NCBI GenBank assembly: GCA_030295235.1
Contig: AP026125.1
Location: 1,302,001-1,366,000 of the forward strand
Direction of reading: 5' to 3'
DNA from: Fistulifera solaris
Taxonomy: Eukaryota; Bacillariophyta; Bacillariophyceae; Naviculales; Stauroneidaceae
DNA length: 64,000 nucleotides
The position numbers and the translations under genes are program-made. How positions within the stretch are numbered: the stretch's first letter is position 1; each line of letters begins with the position of its first letter. Positions 24,366 to 54,326 of the stretch are shown piece after piece. The notes under the pieces are model-generated. The model was not told the origin of the DNA. It did not search any database and was given only the letters and a program-made list of their open reading frames with translations.

Positions 24366-24653
24366 TTAACGGGCACGTTGACGCATCTTACGACGCTTGC
24401 GTCTGAGACGACGCATGCGCTTCTTGCGCCACTTGGGACGCATACCGGCCTGAACTTCCAAAGCCATGGCGAGTTCGTCCTCTTCTTCGACACCGTTGGC
24501 GGCCAAAGTGCCACCCTCGAGGATATCACTGCCACGCATGAGGCGGATCTGACCAGAAGGAACAAATTCCTTGTTCTCAATGGCGAGTTTAAGCGACTCA
24601 ACCGAGTCGGTGGCGTCCACGTTGTACGCCGTAGAACCTACGAAAATCTGCAT
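24366..24653 (-). CDS. Ubiquitin-like protein fused to ribosomal protein eL41
   Basis: A single exon of 95 aa. Residues 1-70 are a ubiquitin-like fold (MQIFVGSTAY..., LKLAIENKEFVPSGQIRLMRG, and a closing ELAMALEVQAG). Residues 71-95 are a complete eL41, the 25-residue, Arg/Lys-rich peptide of the large ribosomal subunit (MRPKWRKKRMRRLRRKRR...). The junction is AG rather than the GG used in ubiquitin-eL40, ubiquitin-eS31 and FAU-eS30 fusions. Cleavage by a ubiquitin-type protease is therefore plausible but unproven, and internal initiation at Met71 is an alternative. I know of no standard ubiquitin-like/eL41 fusion. The start ATG is at 24653 and the frame is intact. The gene is convergent with the Nudix gene. 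Confidence 0.9.
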   Translation of the reverse strand: MQIFVGSTAYNVDATDSVESLKLAIENKEFVPSGQIRLMRGSDILEGGTLAANGVEEEDELAMALEVQAGMRPKWRKKRMRRLRRKRRKMRQRAR

Positions 24654-25345
24654 GATTGCTGTTTTTAGACAACTGGTTGCTCAGACCTAAAAGCGAGTAT
24701 GAATGGTAATTTATAAAGCTCATAAGAATAAATGAAGTGATAAAAAGGCTCATTCTGGTAATTCAACGCTATGAAACCTTCACGATTACAAGTCAAAACA
24801 ACGCATCGAAAGCGTCAAGCCATGCACATCAATCGTGAAATGCTTCAATCGCTGCAACAGCGCCTCCCGCACGCACGAAACAAGTTCACAATTAATCCAA
24901 AAAACTGAATTTACGAAAAACAACGAAACAGGGGGAGAAAATCAACATCTTCATCGAACATACCTTATTACAAGGGAACAGACTGCAGTTATGAGCGTTT
25001 CGATGAAAGGCTGCGGCGGAGGAAGCGATGAACAGCTCTGCGTAGCGGTCGGTACATTTTGTACGCAAAAGTAGCACTGTTGAAGAAATTGGAGGACGAG
25101 AAGGCATCGAAAAAAAGAAGCGGACGACGAGAAGACGGTTCTTCGGATTGGTACACATTATTGACCGGTGTGACAGGAGACAACAGTATGAGTCAGTCAA
25201 GGAGTGCCAGTCCGATTTTCATGCCGTCGCACTTCGCACCTTCGTTGCGAGCGCAGCAACCAGCAATAACGTGATGAAAGCAGCAAACAGCACGATAGAA
25301 AGGCTCATTTACAACAAAGCAATCCATAAAAATTATAACAATAAA
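24654..25345. other. Divergent promoter region, one weak ORF
   Basis: Lies between the ubiquitin-like/eL41 gene (-) and SF3B1 (+). A plus-strand open frame at about 25020-25274 includes [17 protein letters not shown] but has no clear ATG and no family match. It may be 5' leader or an unannotated upstream exon. Nothing else is seen. Confidence 0.4.
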
Positions 25346-28300
25346 ATGACTCCAGTAGGAAAGAACACACAAGACATGAAGGAAGACGGCCGAGGCATCC
25401 GATTCGGCGAGGGTGTAGGCTATGACGATGGATACGGTGACAACGATGACGAGTTTGTCTCCGAATTGCCCACTGCGGAGGAAGAAAATGCGGACGAAGA
25501 TGAAGAAATTGATGAAGGTAATGCACGTAGCCATCCCAGTAGTATTATCGGTCGATCGTCGGTAGGTACTCACACGTTGCTCTTCTTCGTTTCCCCGTTC
25601 CGTACATTTTCTCACAGCACTCTGTTCTTCCAGGCGGAGGAAGGAGGAGAAAATACAGATCCGTTCAAAGGACGGTCTTCGGGTTCTGGACTTGTCAACA
25701 CGAGAATTGCTGATCGAGAATCGGATTATCAGCGACGTAGACACGATAGGGTACTTCGTGAAGAAGGTGTTTCGTTCAAGGATGCGATGAAACAGGCGAA
25801 TATGGAGAAAGAAGAAGATGAACTACATCGAGATTTAGCCAAGCTGCAAAAAGAGGCTGCGGAAGCTGCGGATATGGCAGACGACGGCGGCGATAATGGT
25901 TCTCGAAGACGAAAGAGACGATGGGATGCCACGGGGGCAGATCCTACTCCCGACAATAAGGAGGATTCGGCACTTATTTCGGATAATGAATCAATTGTGT
26001 CTTCGCAAAACAAATGGGATGTAGACCCTTCCGCAGAGCGATCGTCAAATCGTCGAAAGAAACGATGGGATGAGACTCCTGTTATTGGTGCTTCTGGTGT
26101 AGCGGCGACACCGGTGGTTACATCAGGTGCATCGAAATGGGATCAGACCCCGCTTGTTGCGTCCGGGGCGCAAGTTGGTGCCACTCCTGTTGTCGGCGCC
26201 TCTGCGGGTCGAAATCGATGGGACGCGACACCGCTCACAACGACAACTACGACGTCTGGGGTCCCACAAACCCCATCCGGTGGACTCGTCTCGAAGGCAG
26301 CGGCGTTGCAGCAAGAAATGGAATCGAGGAACCGACCGTGGACTGATACGGCATTGGATGCTATTTTGCCTTCGGAAGGGTATACTATATTGCGCCCACC
26401 AGCTAATTACATTCCTCTTCGGACACCGGGCCGTAAATTGCTAGCGACACCCACACCTCTTTCCATGACACCGGCTGGCTTTCAGATGGAAATCCCTATC
26501 GAACAGCGGGCGGATGCATCGATTCAGGAAATTCGTGCCGCCTATGGTGTACCTATCGGTCCTGAAAACGATCAGTCGGGGCTTCCTTCTTCCTTGCCTA
26601 ACATCAAACCCGAAGATATGCAATACTTTGGGCGTCTTCTTGAAGATGCCGACGAAGACAAATTATCTAAGGATGAGCTGAAGGAGCGCCAGATTATGGC
26701 CTTGCTGCTGAAGATCAAAAGCGGCACCCCACCGCAACGCAAGACTGCAATGCGACAAATCACCGATCGGGCTCGATTTTTCGGTGCCGGTCCACTTTTC
26801 AATCAGATATTGCCACTTCTCATGAGTCCTTCTCTGGAAGATCAAGAGCGACATCTACTCGTCAAAGTGATTGATCGGGTTCTCTACAAATTGGACGATC
26901 TCGTGCGTCCATTTGTTCATCGCATTTTGGCTGTTATCGAACCTCTTCTAATTGACGAGGACTATTACGCTCGAGTAGAAGGAAGAGAGATCATCAGCAA
27001 TCTGGCCAAGGCCGCGGGGCTCCCAACGATGATTGCAACTATGCGCCCCGACATTGACAGCCCCGATGAGTATGTTCGAAACACTACTTCGAGAGCGTTT
27101 GCGGTTGTTGCGAGTGCGCTTGGAGTACCCGCTTTGCTTCCCTTTCTAAAAGCCGTTTGTCAATCACGAAAATCCTGGCAAGCTCGCCACACCGGTATTA
27201 AGATCGTGCAACAGATTGCGCTTTTAATGGGCATTGCTGTTCTCCCGTATCTCCGAGAACTTGTTGAAATTGTGAGTCATGGATTGGAGGACGACATGCT
27301 AAAAGTCCGAATCATTACGGCTCTCACCTGCGCAGCCTTGGCCGAAGCGTCTCATCCTTTTGGTGCGGAAAGCTTCGATGTGGCCATCCGTCCCCTTTGG
27401 AAAGGAGCTATGGAGCAGAACGGCAAATCCTTGGCTGCCTTTTTTAAAAGCTATTGGATTCATCATCCCCCCTCATGGAAGAAAATTATGCGAGCCATTA
27501 CACTCGCCTGGTTATGCCGATTCTTCTCCGAGAGTTTCATTCTCCTGACGAAGAAATGAAACGAATTGTTTTAAAAGTTATACAGCAATGTGTTGCAACA
27601 GCTGGTGTCGAGCCCGACTATATCCGTCAAGAAATTCTTCCGGAGTTCTTCAAAACTTTTGGATTCGTCGAATGGCATTGGACCGACGAAACTACAAGCA
27701 AGTAGTCGAAACGACCGAAGAGCTTGCCAATAAAGTTGGGTGCTCTGACATTGTCGTTCGAATCGTTGATGACTTGAAAGATGACTCCGAACCATACCGA
27801 AGAATGGTCATGGAAACGGTTAAAAAAGTAATTGAAAACTTGGGTGCAAGTGATATTGATGAACGTCTGGAAGAAAGATTAATTGACGGAATTCTCTACG
27901 CTTTCCAAGAGCAAGCTGTTGACGCAAGCAACACTGGAGCGAACAGCTTTGGCAGAGAAAGTCAGACTATGTTGGAAGGCTTCGGAACTGTGGTCAATGC
28001 GCTAGGAGAGCGATGCAAGCCTTACTTGAAACAGATTGCAGCTACAATTAAGTGGCGTCTGAACAATAAAGCCGCAACCGTCCGGATGCAAGCGGCCGAT
28101 TTGATAGGCCGCATTGCAGTTGTTATGAAGGCATGCGGAGAAGATCAGCTGATGGGGCATTTAGGAGTTGTTCTCTATGAATACCTGGGCGAAGAGTATC
28201 CAGAAGTTTTGGGATCCATCCTCGGAGCCTTGCGTTCAATCGTGTCATCGATTGGAATGACTAAGATGCAGCCTCCTATTCGAGATCTCTTGCCGCGACT

Positions 28301-29156
28301 CACACCAATTCTTCGCAATCGTCATGAGAAAGTTCAGGAGAATGTCATAGATCTTGTGGGGCGCATAGCCGATAGGGGCGCTGAGTTTGTATCTGCCAAA
28401 GAATGGATGAGAATTTGTTTCGAGTTGCTTGAAATGTTGAAAGCGCAGAAGAAGGCTATTCGCAGAGCAGCTGTGAGTACGTTTGGATTCATTGCCAAGG
28501 CCATCGGACCTCAAGATGTCTTGCATACACTTCTGAACAACCTGAAGGTCCAAGATCGACAGATGCGTGTTTGCACTACTGTAGCAATAGCTATTGTCGC
28601 TGAAACTTGTGGGCCGTTTACAGTTCTTCCTGCTTTGATGAACGAATACAGAGTTCCTGAGCTTAATATTCAAAATGGAGTATTGAAGGCGATGAGTTTT
28701 ATGTTTGAGTACATTGGAGATATGGGCAAGGATTATATCTATGCCGTTTGTCCACTTTTGGAAGATGCCCTAATGGAGCGCGATCCTGTCCATCGACAAA
28801 CTGCTTGTGCGACAGTCAAGCATCTTGCGCTTGGAGTCGCCGGATGTGGGTGCGAAGACGCATTGATCCACCTGCTGAACTTTGTTTGGCCAAACATTTT
28901 CGAGGAAAGTCCGCACGTGATCCAAGCTGTCATGGACGCAATCCAAGGTTTGATGGTTGCCCTTGGACCGAACATAATTCTACAGTACACCATTCAGGGG
29001 CTGTATCACCCGGCACGCAAAGTGCGTGAAGTGTATTGGAGGATCTACAATTCTCTTTACATTTATCATTCCGACGCGCTTGTTCCGGCGTACCCACTGA
29101 TCGAAGATGAGGGGGAAAATACCTACTCTCGTACAGCTCTTGAGCTTTTCATCTAA
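25346..29156 (+). CDS. SF3B1: Splicing factor 3B subunit 1 (U2 snRNP SF3b155)
   Basis: Core U2 snRNP protein that clamps the branch-site duplex. About 1245 aa. The N-terminus has repeated Trp-Asp motifs (RRWDATG, NKWDVDP, KRWDETP, SKWDQTP, RWDATP), the U2AF-ligand motifs that bind UHM proteins. Next come [12 protein letters not shown] and TPARK-like segments, then the long HEAT-repeat array with near-invariant stretches ([52 protein letters not shown]-type), to a stop at 29156. A 72-nt intron (25562-25633) is inferred in the acidic N-terminus. Three one-base changes break the frame: T run 27440-27445 (+1), C run 27467-27472 (+1) and T run 27657-27660 (-1). In an essential gene these are surely sequence errors. 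An earlier ATG at 25274 exists. Confidence 0.93.
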
Positions 29157-42435: not shown

Positions 42436-43283
42436 TTATCTGTTAGACCTTATTCTTTTGTACACTAAGGTTTCGTACGCAACTCCTACATCACCCTTTG
42501 TCGAGACATGTTTCTCTCGCGAGATAATTCGATATTTATTATCCCATCGATACCGGGACGGAAATCGTGCGTAGTTTTGGGCACCTGTAATCGTCACGGG
42601 CTTATCGACCAATGTCAAATGCACACGTTCCGCCGACGGATGCTGAAGCGCCTCTTGATACAGTCGCTCTCCGCCTGCAATCCAGCAAAGTAAATTGTCG
42701 TCACATTCGTTGTCGGTATTCGCTTTCAGTGACTTGGCAAGAGTATTGGCCATTTGCAGCGCCAGGTCGAAGGAATGAGCCACATGCAACGAATCTCCAG
42801 CTAAGTTGGTCAATGTGTTAGAAACAACTATACTGTGGGCACAATGAGATATATGTCGCTGATTCTTTTCTTCTTCAAATGTATGTCGCCCAATGACTAG
42901 TATTTTGTCGCGTGTCAAAGCCTTGAACATTTCTCGTTCTTCCGGCAAATTCCAAGGCAAGGTCCCGTCAAATCCGATCACATTGTTTTCTCGTGCCGCG
43001 GCAGCCACGATACCGAATCGGAAGTCTATGAGCTTTCTTTCTTCGTTTGTCTAAGCCATTAAAGTGAGTTAATGATGTTGAAGCGTCCTCCTCGTGATGC
43101 TGACGGCCTACTTACTGTTTCATCGTCCGAGTTGTTGCGCGCGTTTTCGCGTTGTTTCTTGTTCGGTGACTCGGATGCCGCACACCAGGAGAGTTCTTTC
43201 ACAGCGAAGTGTCGTGACTGATTCCAGAATTTCTTCTCCAAGGCGCTTCGAAAAATAGTGTGACGCAATGAAATGAATGACAT
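42436..43283 (-). CDS. Dihydrofolate reductase, single-domain, with presequence
   Basis: Two exons, 43283-43116 and 43050-42436, joined across a 65-nt GT-AG intron (DDET / TNEERKLIDF). About 260 aa. DHFR hallmarks: IVAAAARENNVIGFDGTLPW, LPEEREMFKALT (acidic active-site residue in LPEE), KILVIGRHTFEE, SIVVSNTL, and CWIAGGERLYQEAL, the GG loop for NADPH. It ends with DHFR-like strands (VHLTLVD, YETLVYKR). The first 30 residues (MSFISLRHTIFRSALEKKFW) suit mitochondrial import. Stramenopiles usually carry a bifunctional DHFR-thymidylate synthase; no synthase follows here. This looks like an extra, stand-alone enzyme or a riboflavin-type reductase relative. The frame is intact. Confidence 0.82.
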
Positions 43284-49352: not shown

Positions 49353-50682
49353 CACTACAATTTGCCGTCACGAAAGTGATGACTGCCAGTTTAGTGTGTT
49401 CAAACAAGAATGATTCAAAAGAAGGAAAATTTAATCAGCAGAATTACGCAATACCTGGTAGTCATATCATTCATCCACCTTCAATCATCATCGCATCATT
49501 CATCATTCGTTCAAAATATTTGTCCATCATGCAGTCACGCGAAGAAGCACGACTAAAACCGTCTTGGATATACTGATCTTTTTTAACACATCGAAAGGGT
49601 TAAGGTTATACTTTAGCTAAGGTGATTGTCGGAGCTATTTTCCATCTCCCATTTTGTCTCAAATTTATCAAAGGTTAGCTGATGATCCGCTTCACGTTTG
49701 ACGAATAGATAACTGGCTTTAAATTACAAATTTCTCACGATAGTCAAGAGGTATATGGACAAGCACAAACTAGACCTAGAGAAGGCCAAACCGTTTCCGA
49801 GTTTTATGCGTCAGTCTCCGTCATGTAAACCTTAACGGCGGTCACTCCGACATCGGAATTTTCTCCGCGCAAAAATTGCGGGGAATTCTCAAATTCTCAT
49901 GGAATCCCAACTCCTCGCATATCCTTAAGAAATAAGTAGGTATCTTGACACCGTGACATCAGCCAGCAATATAGGCCAATAAGTAGAAACCACGCGAAGC
50001 GAATGATGAATCTTCTCTTCTAGCTTAGAGATAAGAGCACGTGTGAATGGTGATGTCTGTCGCTGTGACACCGCCATCAAGGTCTGATTGCTCGACTGTT
50101 TTGTTTGCCGTTAGTGTAAGGAATTCTACACATAGAGGCACAGTCCACTTAGATCGCTGACGGCATGCGGAAGATGAGCGTATGGTAGGCTTTTTACGTA
50201 AAGTTACTCGTGTCCAGCCTACACATTCTCGCATAGAAAGCGTGTTCGTGATATGATACGGCGATCTGAGCGAGAGCAGGGCAAAAAAAACCGCAAAGGG
50301 AGACCATTTGCTCGAAACTCTCAAAAGAATTGTGGCTCACTCCTTGTCTGCAAATCGTTATCTTTTGTTCTTTGTTGTTTCTATTTAAACGAGGTGACTC
50401 TTTCGGATATCGTGTTGCTTTGCCTGTGGTCAAGGGCGCCGTCGCCGCAATCAAAGATCTTGAGCTTCTATTCCGAGAACAACACCAAAAGATCGCCTTC
50501 TTCGATCCGTTAACTTTTTCATATCGTGGCATATCAACTAACTACTGCGCGTGCTCTTCAATTATCACCCCGATCAGGGTGATACGTTTTACAACGAAGG
50601 CATAGCCGCTTCCATTTTATCAGATTCCCCGATCGTGTGTCACACACTTTCCTAACCTTTTGATACGATCACCTCTTGCAAG
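49353..50682. other. Intergenic, one perfect hairpin
   Basis: No gene is supported; open frames on both strands at 50.0-50.6 kb overlap each other and have no conserved features. TATCACCC-CGATCA-GGGTGATA (50563-50584) forms a perfect 8-bp stem about 100 bp upstream of the PI4K ATG. An AAT/ATTCTC-rich imperfect repeat lies near 49855-49905. Confidence 0.4.
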
Positions 50683-52945
50683 ATGGTGAGCATGGATCAA
50701 CGCGAAGCCTCACAAAGAGGAACGGACATCAAAATTTACGTTCGCGATGTTCGTGACCCTGAGCAGAAAAAACGAGCTTTGACTGTTCGCTCGTGGTCTA
50801 CAATCAAGGATGTGAAAGACGTTTTAAAAGATCTGATTCACGTCCCACCCAGTGCGCAACGTCTCTATTATGGGCCTTTGCTTACCTCGAAAGGAGAACT
50901 ACCCAATCATCGAAGTCTTCACGATGCTGGAATCTACCGATCAGGAGAGACTCTCTTGCTTGACATCAAACAGAGCCATTCAACTGCGACAACACATTAC
51001 TCTTCGATCGTTTCATTGCATCAATCCAACGATATTTGTGTTTCTTCTTCGGTTTTTGATATCACGCCGAAACCTTTGCGGGCTTTGGTTCAGAAAGCCC
51101 GCCGTGCCTTTACCATCGGTTTGAAGCCAGAATTCATCATGGATGGTTCCGGTGGATCGTACTTCATTCACGATGCCCGCAAGAGTCGACTTGCCGTTTT
51201 CAAGCCTGCTGACGAAGAGCCTTATGCGGAAAATAACCCCCGCAGGTACATACAACAAGGCAATCAGCAACTCTCGCTACGTGATGGCATTGTTCCCGGA
51301 GAGTCTTGTCTTCGCGAGGTCGCAGCTTATCTTCTGGATCACGATCATTTTAGTTCGGTTCCTATGACTACCCTGGTGGAAGCACGTCATCCTGCATTCA
51401 ATACAAACGGGGCCAGATTGACGGTCGCTGAAGGAGGAGCTAGTGTTGGGAGACATTCTTTGAGCCCTAATGCAAGTGTCAGCTCCCCGACGATGAAAAA
51501 AGCTGGTTCATTTCAAGAGTTCGTTCGTTGCGAGTGTACAATGGATGATATCAGTCCAAGCATGATTTCTGTCGAAGAAGTTCACAAAATTGCGATTCTC
51601 GACATACGAATCATGAACGCGGATCGAAATGCAGCCAATCTTTTGATCCGTCGACGAGTGGATAATTCCTTGGAACTCGTTCCCATCGATCATGGATACT
51701 GCTTGCGGTCTGTTGGTGATGTGTCGTGGATGGACTGGTGCTGGCTGGACTGGCCTCAACTTAAGAAGGTAAGACTCAATTGGTTGGAATCAATGTGTAA
51801 TCCTGCCTTCGCTGACGTTTCGTGTTCCAGCCTTTGAGTGATCGCCATAAAAAGTACATTGCGGCGTTGGACATTGAGAAGGACGCTGAAATGCTCCGTA
51901 GCAGACTTGGTATTGGTCAAGAAGCAATCGATTACTTTCGCGCATCGACTGCCTTGCTCAAAGCAGGCGTGAATGCAGGTCTTAATCTGTATGAAATTGC
52001 CATCTTATGTTGCCGCAACGACAACCTTGCTGAGATACCATCCATGATGGAGAAATTATTCTCCATGGCTTCTGACTTGGCACACAAGGCAGTTGAGAAT
52101 GAGCGATGGCACCATGCTGCCGCTTCCTTGGCTATTGAAGAAAAGTTGACGCCACGTCGTTCTACGATGGCGGCATCGCAGCTCCGTCTTGAAGCTTCTG
52201 GCTATAAGATTCGCAAGTCCGCATCGTCGATCGGCTTCCATTCTCTCGAGTCGGCGTCTGGTGGGTCTTTTTACGGAAGCGACGGCCTCAATGGCCGTGA
52301 TTCGCCAGGAATGGTGCAGTCATCTGCGTCGGATTCAAGCTCCGATGGGGATGCTGTAGCTGAGCAAGACGAATGTGAAGAGTGGGCTATGAATGCCATT
52401 GCAGATGCTACAGCTGGGAATCTTGTCGAAACGTATCAGGGTCGCCCCGAGCGTTCGTGTTCGGTTGCTTCGGACGATTGTTCGAACGGTTCGCGGAAAG
52501 GATTTTGGACGGTGGCCCCTGGAACTGTCGTCGTTCCTACCGAACCATCTGATGATGGTTCTTTCACTTGGAGCCCACAGCCTTCTCCGCGAACAGATAG
52601 TGGACAGATTTTGTCACCCCCGTCAAGCCCGAAATCATTGAAAGTTAGTTTTACGACGAGACTTCCTTCCGGTCCGTTCATTCCTCCTTCGACTGTGGCG
52701 GTATCGAAGAACTCTTTCGAACGTGATAATCCGTACTTACTTCGCTCCGAGAGTGGCATGACAAGAAGCAGAGTTATTCGTCGATTCCTCGGGAGTCATC
52801 GACTTACAGTGGTGCTTCGCGGGATAGCCGAACGCTGAAGCCTTATTCGGAAGCATACGAGAATTATCGCAAGTATTTTCACAAGTTCATTGACCTTGTC
52901 ATTGTCCGTGAAACTACCACTGCAGCTTTACAATCCAAAAACTGA
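50683..52945 (+). CDS. Ubiquitin-like-domain PI 4-kinase gamma-type kinase
   Basis: Two exons, 50683-51768 and 51831-52945, with a 62-nt intron (DWPQLKK / PLSDRHKKY). About 730 aa. A ubiquitin-like domain at about residues 15-95 ([22 protein letters not shown]) precedes a PI3/PI4-kinase domain from about 145: GGSYFIHD glycine-rich strand, [12 protein letters not shown] (Lys), [26 protein letters not shown] (catalytic DRN..N) and [10 protein letters not shown]. This is the layout of plant PI4K-gamma/UbDK proteins, several of which act as protein kinases. The C-terminal part is Ser-rich. A base is lost in AA at 52766-52767; the adjacent frame goes on ([31 protein letters not shown]) to a stop at 52943-52945. 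Confidence 0.9.
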
Positions 52946-54002: not shown

Positions 54003-54120
54003 AGGAACGACCATACTACGATGACAGCACCGCTTCCCGTCTGCTCAGCGAAGTTAAGCATCGTCAGGCCCGGTTAGTACTACGGTGGGGGACCACGTTG
54101 GAATCCCGGGTGTTGTTCTT
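54003..54120 (+). rRNA. 5S ribosomal RNA gene
   Basis: The 118-base segment matches eukaryotic 5S rRNA along its length: ACGACCATAC near the 5' end, CCCGTCTG and CGAAGTTAAGC in the middle, then GGCCCGGTTAGTACT, GGGGGACCAC and GGAATCCCGGGTGTTGTTC. The ends pair (AGGAAC with GTTCTT, positions 54003-54008 with 54115-54120). A T run follows (TGTCTTTT), as expected for RNA polymerase III termination. The internal A-box/C-box zone (GAAGTTAAGC ... GGTTAGTACT) is intact. It stands alone between protein genes rather than in a tandem array or beside rDNA. Confidence 0.92.
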
Positions 54121-54326
54121 TGTCTTTTCTGATTCAAGCGTCTGTACGTCGGCAATCATTATTTTTGCGTTCTTCCGCCACCAAAACCTGCGTTCATGTC
54201 ACGTCGCGTCATTCGGAGGACGATGGACGATGGTTATTCTGTTGCCGTTAATCATCTATCACTTTCGCTTTCCCATTTTGCACAAAATCATACTAGAACT
54301 CGCCCTCTCTCATATCCGAACGTAGA

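Follow-up and report, generated by a model that had tools for sequence, protein, structure and literature searches.

The DNA analysed here (the window, i.e. a 64-kb stretch of Fistulifera solaris contig AP026125.1) contains on its minus strand one uninterrupted open reading frame of 95 codons, read from ATG to TAA, in which an N-terminal ubiquitin-family domain and a ribosomal protein share the frame, as in ubiquitin-type fusion precursors. In protein order on this strand, MQIFVGSTAYNVDATDSVESLKLAIENKEFVPSGQIRLMRGSDILEGGTLAANGVEEEDELAMALEVQAG runs directly into MRPKWRKKRMRRLRRKRRKMRQRAR, after which comes the stop codon; the plus-strand reading at 24366-24653 is unrelated to the ubiquitin-eL41 fusion. 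The features of the locus are:

24366..24653, minus strand: single open reading frame, diverged ubiquitin and eL41 in one frame; 95 amino acids plus stop codon TAA
24444..24653, minus strand: ubiquitin-like part, residues 1-70 (MQIFV...LEVQAG); PF00240, ubiquitin alignment and tblastn; net charge -9
24369..24443, minus strand: complete eL41/eS32, residues 71-95; PF05162 and PDB eL41 matches; net charge +17
24441..24449, minus strand: junction of Ala69-Gly70 with Met71, versus the terminal Gly75-Gly76 of ubiquitin, placed by alignment; putative cut after Gly70
24465..24467, minus strand: internal in-frame ATG, Met63, context GCCATGG; precedes Met71 for scanning ribosomes
24654..24683, minus strand: 30 nt upstream of Met1, the first three being a TGA stop in frame with it; Met1 lies in ATCATGC (A at -3)

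An initial annotation had described a direct in-frame fusion with an exact boundary at 24366-24653, and the open frame and the alignment bear this out; the coordinates are exact, the strand, absent from that annotation, is minus, and the AG at the junction and the internal Met71 are both present in the translation. Its term 'exon' holds for an uninterrupted 95-codon frame, from which the exon status is presumed.

Coding potential was assessed by codon log-odds, trained on 2930 codons from Pfam-matched stretches of the window. In frame, residues 1-70 score +24 bits; the two remaining frames of the strand give -15 and -30, and one antisense frame gives +1.9. The short eL41 part (25 codons) yields just +2.6. 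Of 5927 open 70-codon stretches drawn at random from the window, 3.4% score at least as high as residues 1-70, and many of these are presumably real genes.

The flanking genes are ordinary eukaryotic ones: the fusion gene lies between a gene for a Nudix hydrolase and one for SF3B1. The SF3B1-like gene (25046-29153, plus strand) is divergent from the fusion gene, so that the upstream region is common to both; its frame switches between two overlapping long open reading frames, which would fit an intron. Elsewhere, the window comprises a complete 5S rRNA gene (54003-54121, plus strand; 101.6 bits) between a Nudix-domain and an SRP54-type open reading frame, which is the only Rfam match at gathering scores, and an open reading frame with a DHFR domain (42439-43050, minus strand); in bifunctional protist enzymes DHFR is followed by thymidylate synthase. 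No tRNA genes were predicted in the 64-kb window using ARAGORN.

The eL41 part

Residues 71-95, when searched alone, match Pfam Ribosomal_L41 (PF05162) with E=4.7e-9 and 36.5 bits (gathering score, 22.3), and they are identical at 21 of 25 positions to u607, the commonest eL41 sequence in the PDB, which confirms the complete 25-residue eL41 of the initial annotation. The sequence u607 is presumably that of human eL41. The peptide is of the basic, conserved, 24-25-residue type (MRxKWRKKRMRRL.RKRRKMRQR), and the 27 distinct eL41-type PDB sequences that it matches are all 22-41 amino acids long. In some of the deposited chains, 8-16 additional residues precede the core at the N-terminus, which suggests that short extensions of eL41 may be tolerated. 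The DNA pattern of the eL41 core has a single occurrence in the window, against none in 100 shuffles, and no second convincing eL41 was found within these 64 kb (next tblastn match, E=0.026). A stand-alone short eL41 gene, however, is not what the frame presents, since it stays open for another 70 codons upstream, as far as a Met.

The protein, for which eS32 is now a second name, belongs structurally to the small subunit, where it lies near the decoding centre (PMC11724365; PMC5693986). In a fungal ribosome study, eL41 escaped detection because suitable tryptic peptides were lacking (PMC8789840). It is non-essential in yeast (PMC6582356) and has been reported absent from the ribosomes of V. 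necatrix (PMC10123126), and a loss or an oddity of eL41 in one lineage would thus not be dramatic by itself. The C-terminus of mitochondrial mS38 resembles eL41 (PMC6582356); an identity of the tail as mS38, itself left unaligned, was set aside on the 21/25 identity to the common PDB eL41.

These data bear on whether the locus could be a pseudogene, an assembly artefact or a lineage oddity, and thus a copy without function or with an auxiliary one, while an ordinary eL41 gene stands alone elsewhere in the genome. Residue 3 of the eL41 part is Pro, compared to Ala in the five PDB alignments listed, and no relative was found in the viral contigs searched, as such a copy would allow; however, the frame is open, residues 1-70 have a coding bias, the eL41 part retains its identity to u607, and the window, though of 64 kb only, holds no other convincing eL41. 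We regard this explanation as very improbable.

Relatives of the fusion were searched for in several collections. In the viral contigs, the protein search gave 27 stretches that fit a pattern, of which none was confirmed as a relative, and the eL41 DNA pattern gave no relative either; NCBIfam and PHROGs contained no match for the fusion protein. A scan of prokaryote contigs with the eL41 pattern gave at least 118 stretches, and those listed comprise 114 archaeal-type eL41 and four others in bacterial records. Among these 118 listed matches there is no eukaryote-named record and no relative of the fusion, and no ubiquitin-like sequence is found in the 99 that have upstream frames of at least 20 residues (17 of them at least 60). 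The 114 archaeal-type proteins are longer, with a conserved KRSSRxWKK...RW-type extension ahead of the common core; their records, among the matches listed, are mostly named Thermoplasmata, Thermoplasmatota or Euryarchaeota, and a few are labelled bacterium.

The ubiquitin-like part

Residues 1-70 alone match Pfam ubiquitin (PF00240) with E=1.2e-4 and 22.2 bits, i.e. under the gathering score of 25.4. In a global alignment with human ubiquitin, 26 of the 70 residues are identical, and 0 of 1000 query shuffles reach the score. A tblastn search of the 64-kb window for human ubiquitin gave the fusion locus as the top match (E=1e-8), with all 76 residues covered. The second match (50767-50940, E=0.003) lies in an open reading frame at 50656-51834 on the plus strand, in which a ubiquitin-like stretch precedes, in frame, a PI3/PI4-kinase domain, and which we take to resemble the plant ubiquitin-domain PI4-kinase gamma type.

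With phmmer, residues 1-70 score 28.4 bits against ubiquitin, 16.4 against NEDD8 and 12.5 against human FUBI, the sole FUBI compared, to which 20/70 residues are identical. This order argues for ubiquitin ancestry and against FUBI orthology, which these identities and scores do not support; the domain looks like a diverged ubiquitin. In a PDB search with the whole protein, the first part matched ubiquitins and the last part eL41; among the 57 distinct PDB sequences at E<=1e-5, no FUBI was found and, as judged by names and lengths, no sequence with both domains.

What marks ubiquitin proper, i.e. near-identity, all seven lysines, an Ile44 patch and the LRLRGG tail, is not retained. K6, T7, L8 and T9 of ubiquitin are removed by a deletion at the first beta turn, and there are two more one-residue gaps. 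Five of the seven ubiquitin lysines (6, 11, 29, 48 and 63) are lost, whereas the positions of K27 and K33 still hold a Lys; L8, I44, H68 and V70 of the Ile44 patch are replaced by a gap, M, A and A; and the tail LRLRGG reads LEVQAG, with loss of RxR. Of 15 core positions listed, most are kept or swapped for a similar hydrophobic residue, and one is a gap. Since lysines and Ile44-patch residues are lost or changed, a role of residues 1-70 as a conjugated ubiquitin signal is unlikely from the sequence.

The net charge of residues 1-70 is -9 (ubiquitin, 0; FUBI, -8), next to +17 for the eL41 part; such acidity is no rarity, as a charge of -9 or lower is found in 40 of 570 seventy-residue windows of the Pfam-bearing open reading frames here. 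By analogy, this pairing of -9 with +17 is parallel to FUBI-eS30, and is suggestive only. The 'ubiquitin-like fold' of the initial annotation stands as sequence homology; single-sequence AlphaFold2 models are poor, with a mean pLDDT of 61 for the full length and 52 for residues 1-70, i.e. of low confidence. In a Foldseek search with the low-confidence model of residues 1-70 (pLDDT 52), about 42 of the best 50 of 83 matches were ubiquitin, none of the matches reached E<=0.001, and the result is given little weight.

Junction, start codons and a possible cleaved precursor

In the reading that we favour, and hold to be somewhat probable, one 95-residue precursor would be translated from Met1; residues 1-70 would fold into an acidic N-terminal partner, which would shield eL41 in cis and preserve the solubility and stability of the 25-residue, +17 peptide on its way to the ribosome; and a ubiquitin-like protease would cut after Gly70, between AG and M, to release eL41 with the ordinary Met-Arg N-terminus. 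The two parts join exactly at the ubiquitin C-terminus, and the final Gly is kept despite only 26/70 residues matching ubiquitin; as the next residue is the Met of ordinary eL41, a cut there would regenerate standard eL41. Ubiquitin has been suggested as a cis chaperone in yeast Ub-eL40 and Ub-eS31 (PMC8122580), and cleavage of FUBI-eS30 is required for 40S maturation (PMC8354635). The idea of a chaperone that is then cut off, which the initial annotation had raised, is thus the one favoured here, as an unproven one in which cleavage is a prediction from the sequence.

The location of eL41 also bears on the fate of the domain. In an archaeal ribosome, eS32 (= eL41) has an elongated N-terminus that reaches deep into the small subunit, with h27, h44 and h45 around it (PMC11724365), and an uncut 70-residue domain should therefore clash there, as far as the archaeal ribosome is a guide to the eukaryotic one. 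Otu2 work found eL41 in mature 40S and not in pre-40S particles, cites its entry at late cytoplasmic pre-60S maturation, and suggests its transfer to 40S after 60S joining (PMC10175282). From this placement and entry route, a folded 70-residue domain should be gone by subunit joining, which argues for its removal by a protease, or for synthesis of eL41 without the domain.

Synthesis without the domain would require that eL41 alone is made from Met71, through leaky scanning or an internal transcription start, with the ubiquitin-like frame as a separate or vestigial product. Met71 is retained and has G at -3, and over-long annotation of eL41 genes does occur, as the eL41 gene of Giardia is annotated longer than the protein seen by cryo-EM (PMC8860606). 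The open reading frame contains six ATGs, Met1 included, each of them in frame, and no out-of-frame ATG occurs inside it. Start contexts are ranked here by the Kozak rule, under which Met63 is the best. Scanning ribosomes would have to bypass Met1, which has A at -3, then Met39 and also Met63, whose GCCATGG surpasses the context of Met71, and the upstream part is ubiquitin-homologous and coding-like, unlike a chance extension. Initiation at Met71, also proposed in the initial annotation, is thus possible in principle and made less likely by scanning; we consider it improbable, although it is the strongest of the rival readings. Since such a start must pass three upstream Met codons, of which Met63 has a better context, and the domain would need to be removed, the cleaved precursor is favoured.

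The main objection to cleavage is the missing di-glycine: in place of the Gly-Gly of ubiquitin and UBL-ribosomal protein precursors, the junction has Ala69-Gly70. Ubiquitin in which both terminal glycines are changed to Ala is resistant to E. coli deubiquitinases (PMC3961674), FUBI-eS30 with AA or GV replacing GG is used as a non-cleavable form (PMC8354635), and the narrow channel of USP36 limits cleavage to a terminal di-Gly (PMC10611586). The Ub-eS31 of Giardia has an extra Ala between the glycines, a presumed block, and the fusion is reported as uncut (PMC8122580). The literature on cleavage by deubiquitinases and of FUBI, as far as it was accessible, contained no test of an AG junction. 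To set against this objection, the junction here has its final Gly intact, and the ubiquitin relatives UFM1 and ATG8 are processed after a single Gly by proteases of their own.

The AG junction and the altered tail would also fit a stable fusion, i.e. an uncut protein that keeps a permanent ubiquitin-like domain in ribosomes or elsewhere, for which the Giardia Ub-eS31 with its inserted Ala is a precedent (PMC8122580) and to which the 8-16-residue extensions ahead of the eL41 core in PDB chain sequences would lend some plausibility. However, the eS32 N-terminus is buried near h27/h44/h45 in the archaeon (PMC11724365) and eL41 adjoins the decoding centre (PMC5693986), where a 70-residue domain should clash, and we therefore rate a stable fusion as quite unlikely.

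Known fusions and significance

The initial annotation knew of no established eL41 fusion; ubiquitin-eL41 architectures have, however, been reported already. Martin-Villanueva et al. 2021 mention a small number of architectures in Pfam that join ubiquitin to eS8, eS19, uL1 or eL41, from a set restricted by a cut-off of 80% identity to the ubiquitin of yeast, with species and sequences of the Ub-eL41 architectures in supplementary Table S2 (PMC8122580), and a 2024 review repeats the mention (PMC11354881). The domain pair is the same; in contrast to the ubiquitin of at least 80% identity to that of yeast in this set (PMC8122580), the ubiquitin part here, with 26/70 residues identical to human ubiquitin, would fail the filter. 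The pairing is thus already known as a curiosity, and what differs here, as judged from the sequence, is the diverged ubiquitin part. A diverged, dedicated ubiquitin-eL41 was not found in the accessible literature on eL41/L41 fusions, a coverage that excludes most subscription journals; L41 is absent from the main text of an algal survey (PMC6332867), and no ubiquitin-eL41 fusion was seen among the eL41 mentions in the accessible part of PMC5693986.

The closest likeness is to FUBI-eS30 (FAU), described as holozoan (PMC8354635), in which a diverged, lysine-poor, acidic ubiquitin relative likewise precedes a small, basic ribosomal protein near the decoding centre; the partner there, however, is eS30, FUBI ends in GG as opposed to AG, and the ubiquitin part here has more residues in common with ubiquitin (26/70) than with FUBI (20/70). 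Ub-eL40 and Ub-eS31 share the N-terminal ubiquitin with a ribosomal protein straight after its C-terminal Gly, but their ubiquitin is canonical and becomes usable, in contrast with the diverged ubiquitin and the missing di-Gly of the present fusion. The mode suggested for these three fusions, i.e. to shield and then to cut, is the one proposed here. The Giardia Ub-eS31 is alike as a ubiquitin-ribosomal fusion with an altered di-Gly, and differs in the Ala inserted between the glycines, in being reported uncut and in its partner, eS31 (PMC8122580).

A 2021 review regards it as a mystery why ubiquitin comes from fusions with just a few ribosomal proteins (PMC8122580). As a tentative and rather doubtful proposal, the fusion might represent a second, independently evolved FUBI-like partner, i.e. 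a ubiquitin captured by eL41 that lost its signalling, is acidic, and acts as a dedicated chaperone released by a single-Gly protease. If true, this would suggest that proteins of the working centres of the ribosome have repeatedly been given a ubiquitin-type cap whose removal is required before the ribosome works. A non-signalling ubiquitin kept ahead of eL41 would separate the chaperone explanation of such fusions from the explanation by ubiquitin supply, and the fusion would be a natural test of which protease processes a junction without di-glycine.
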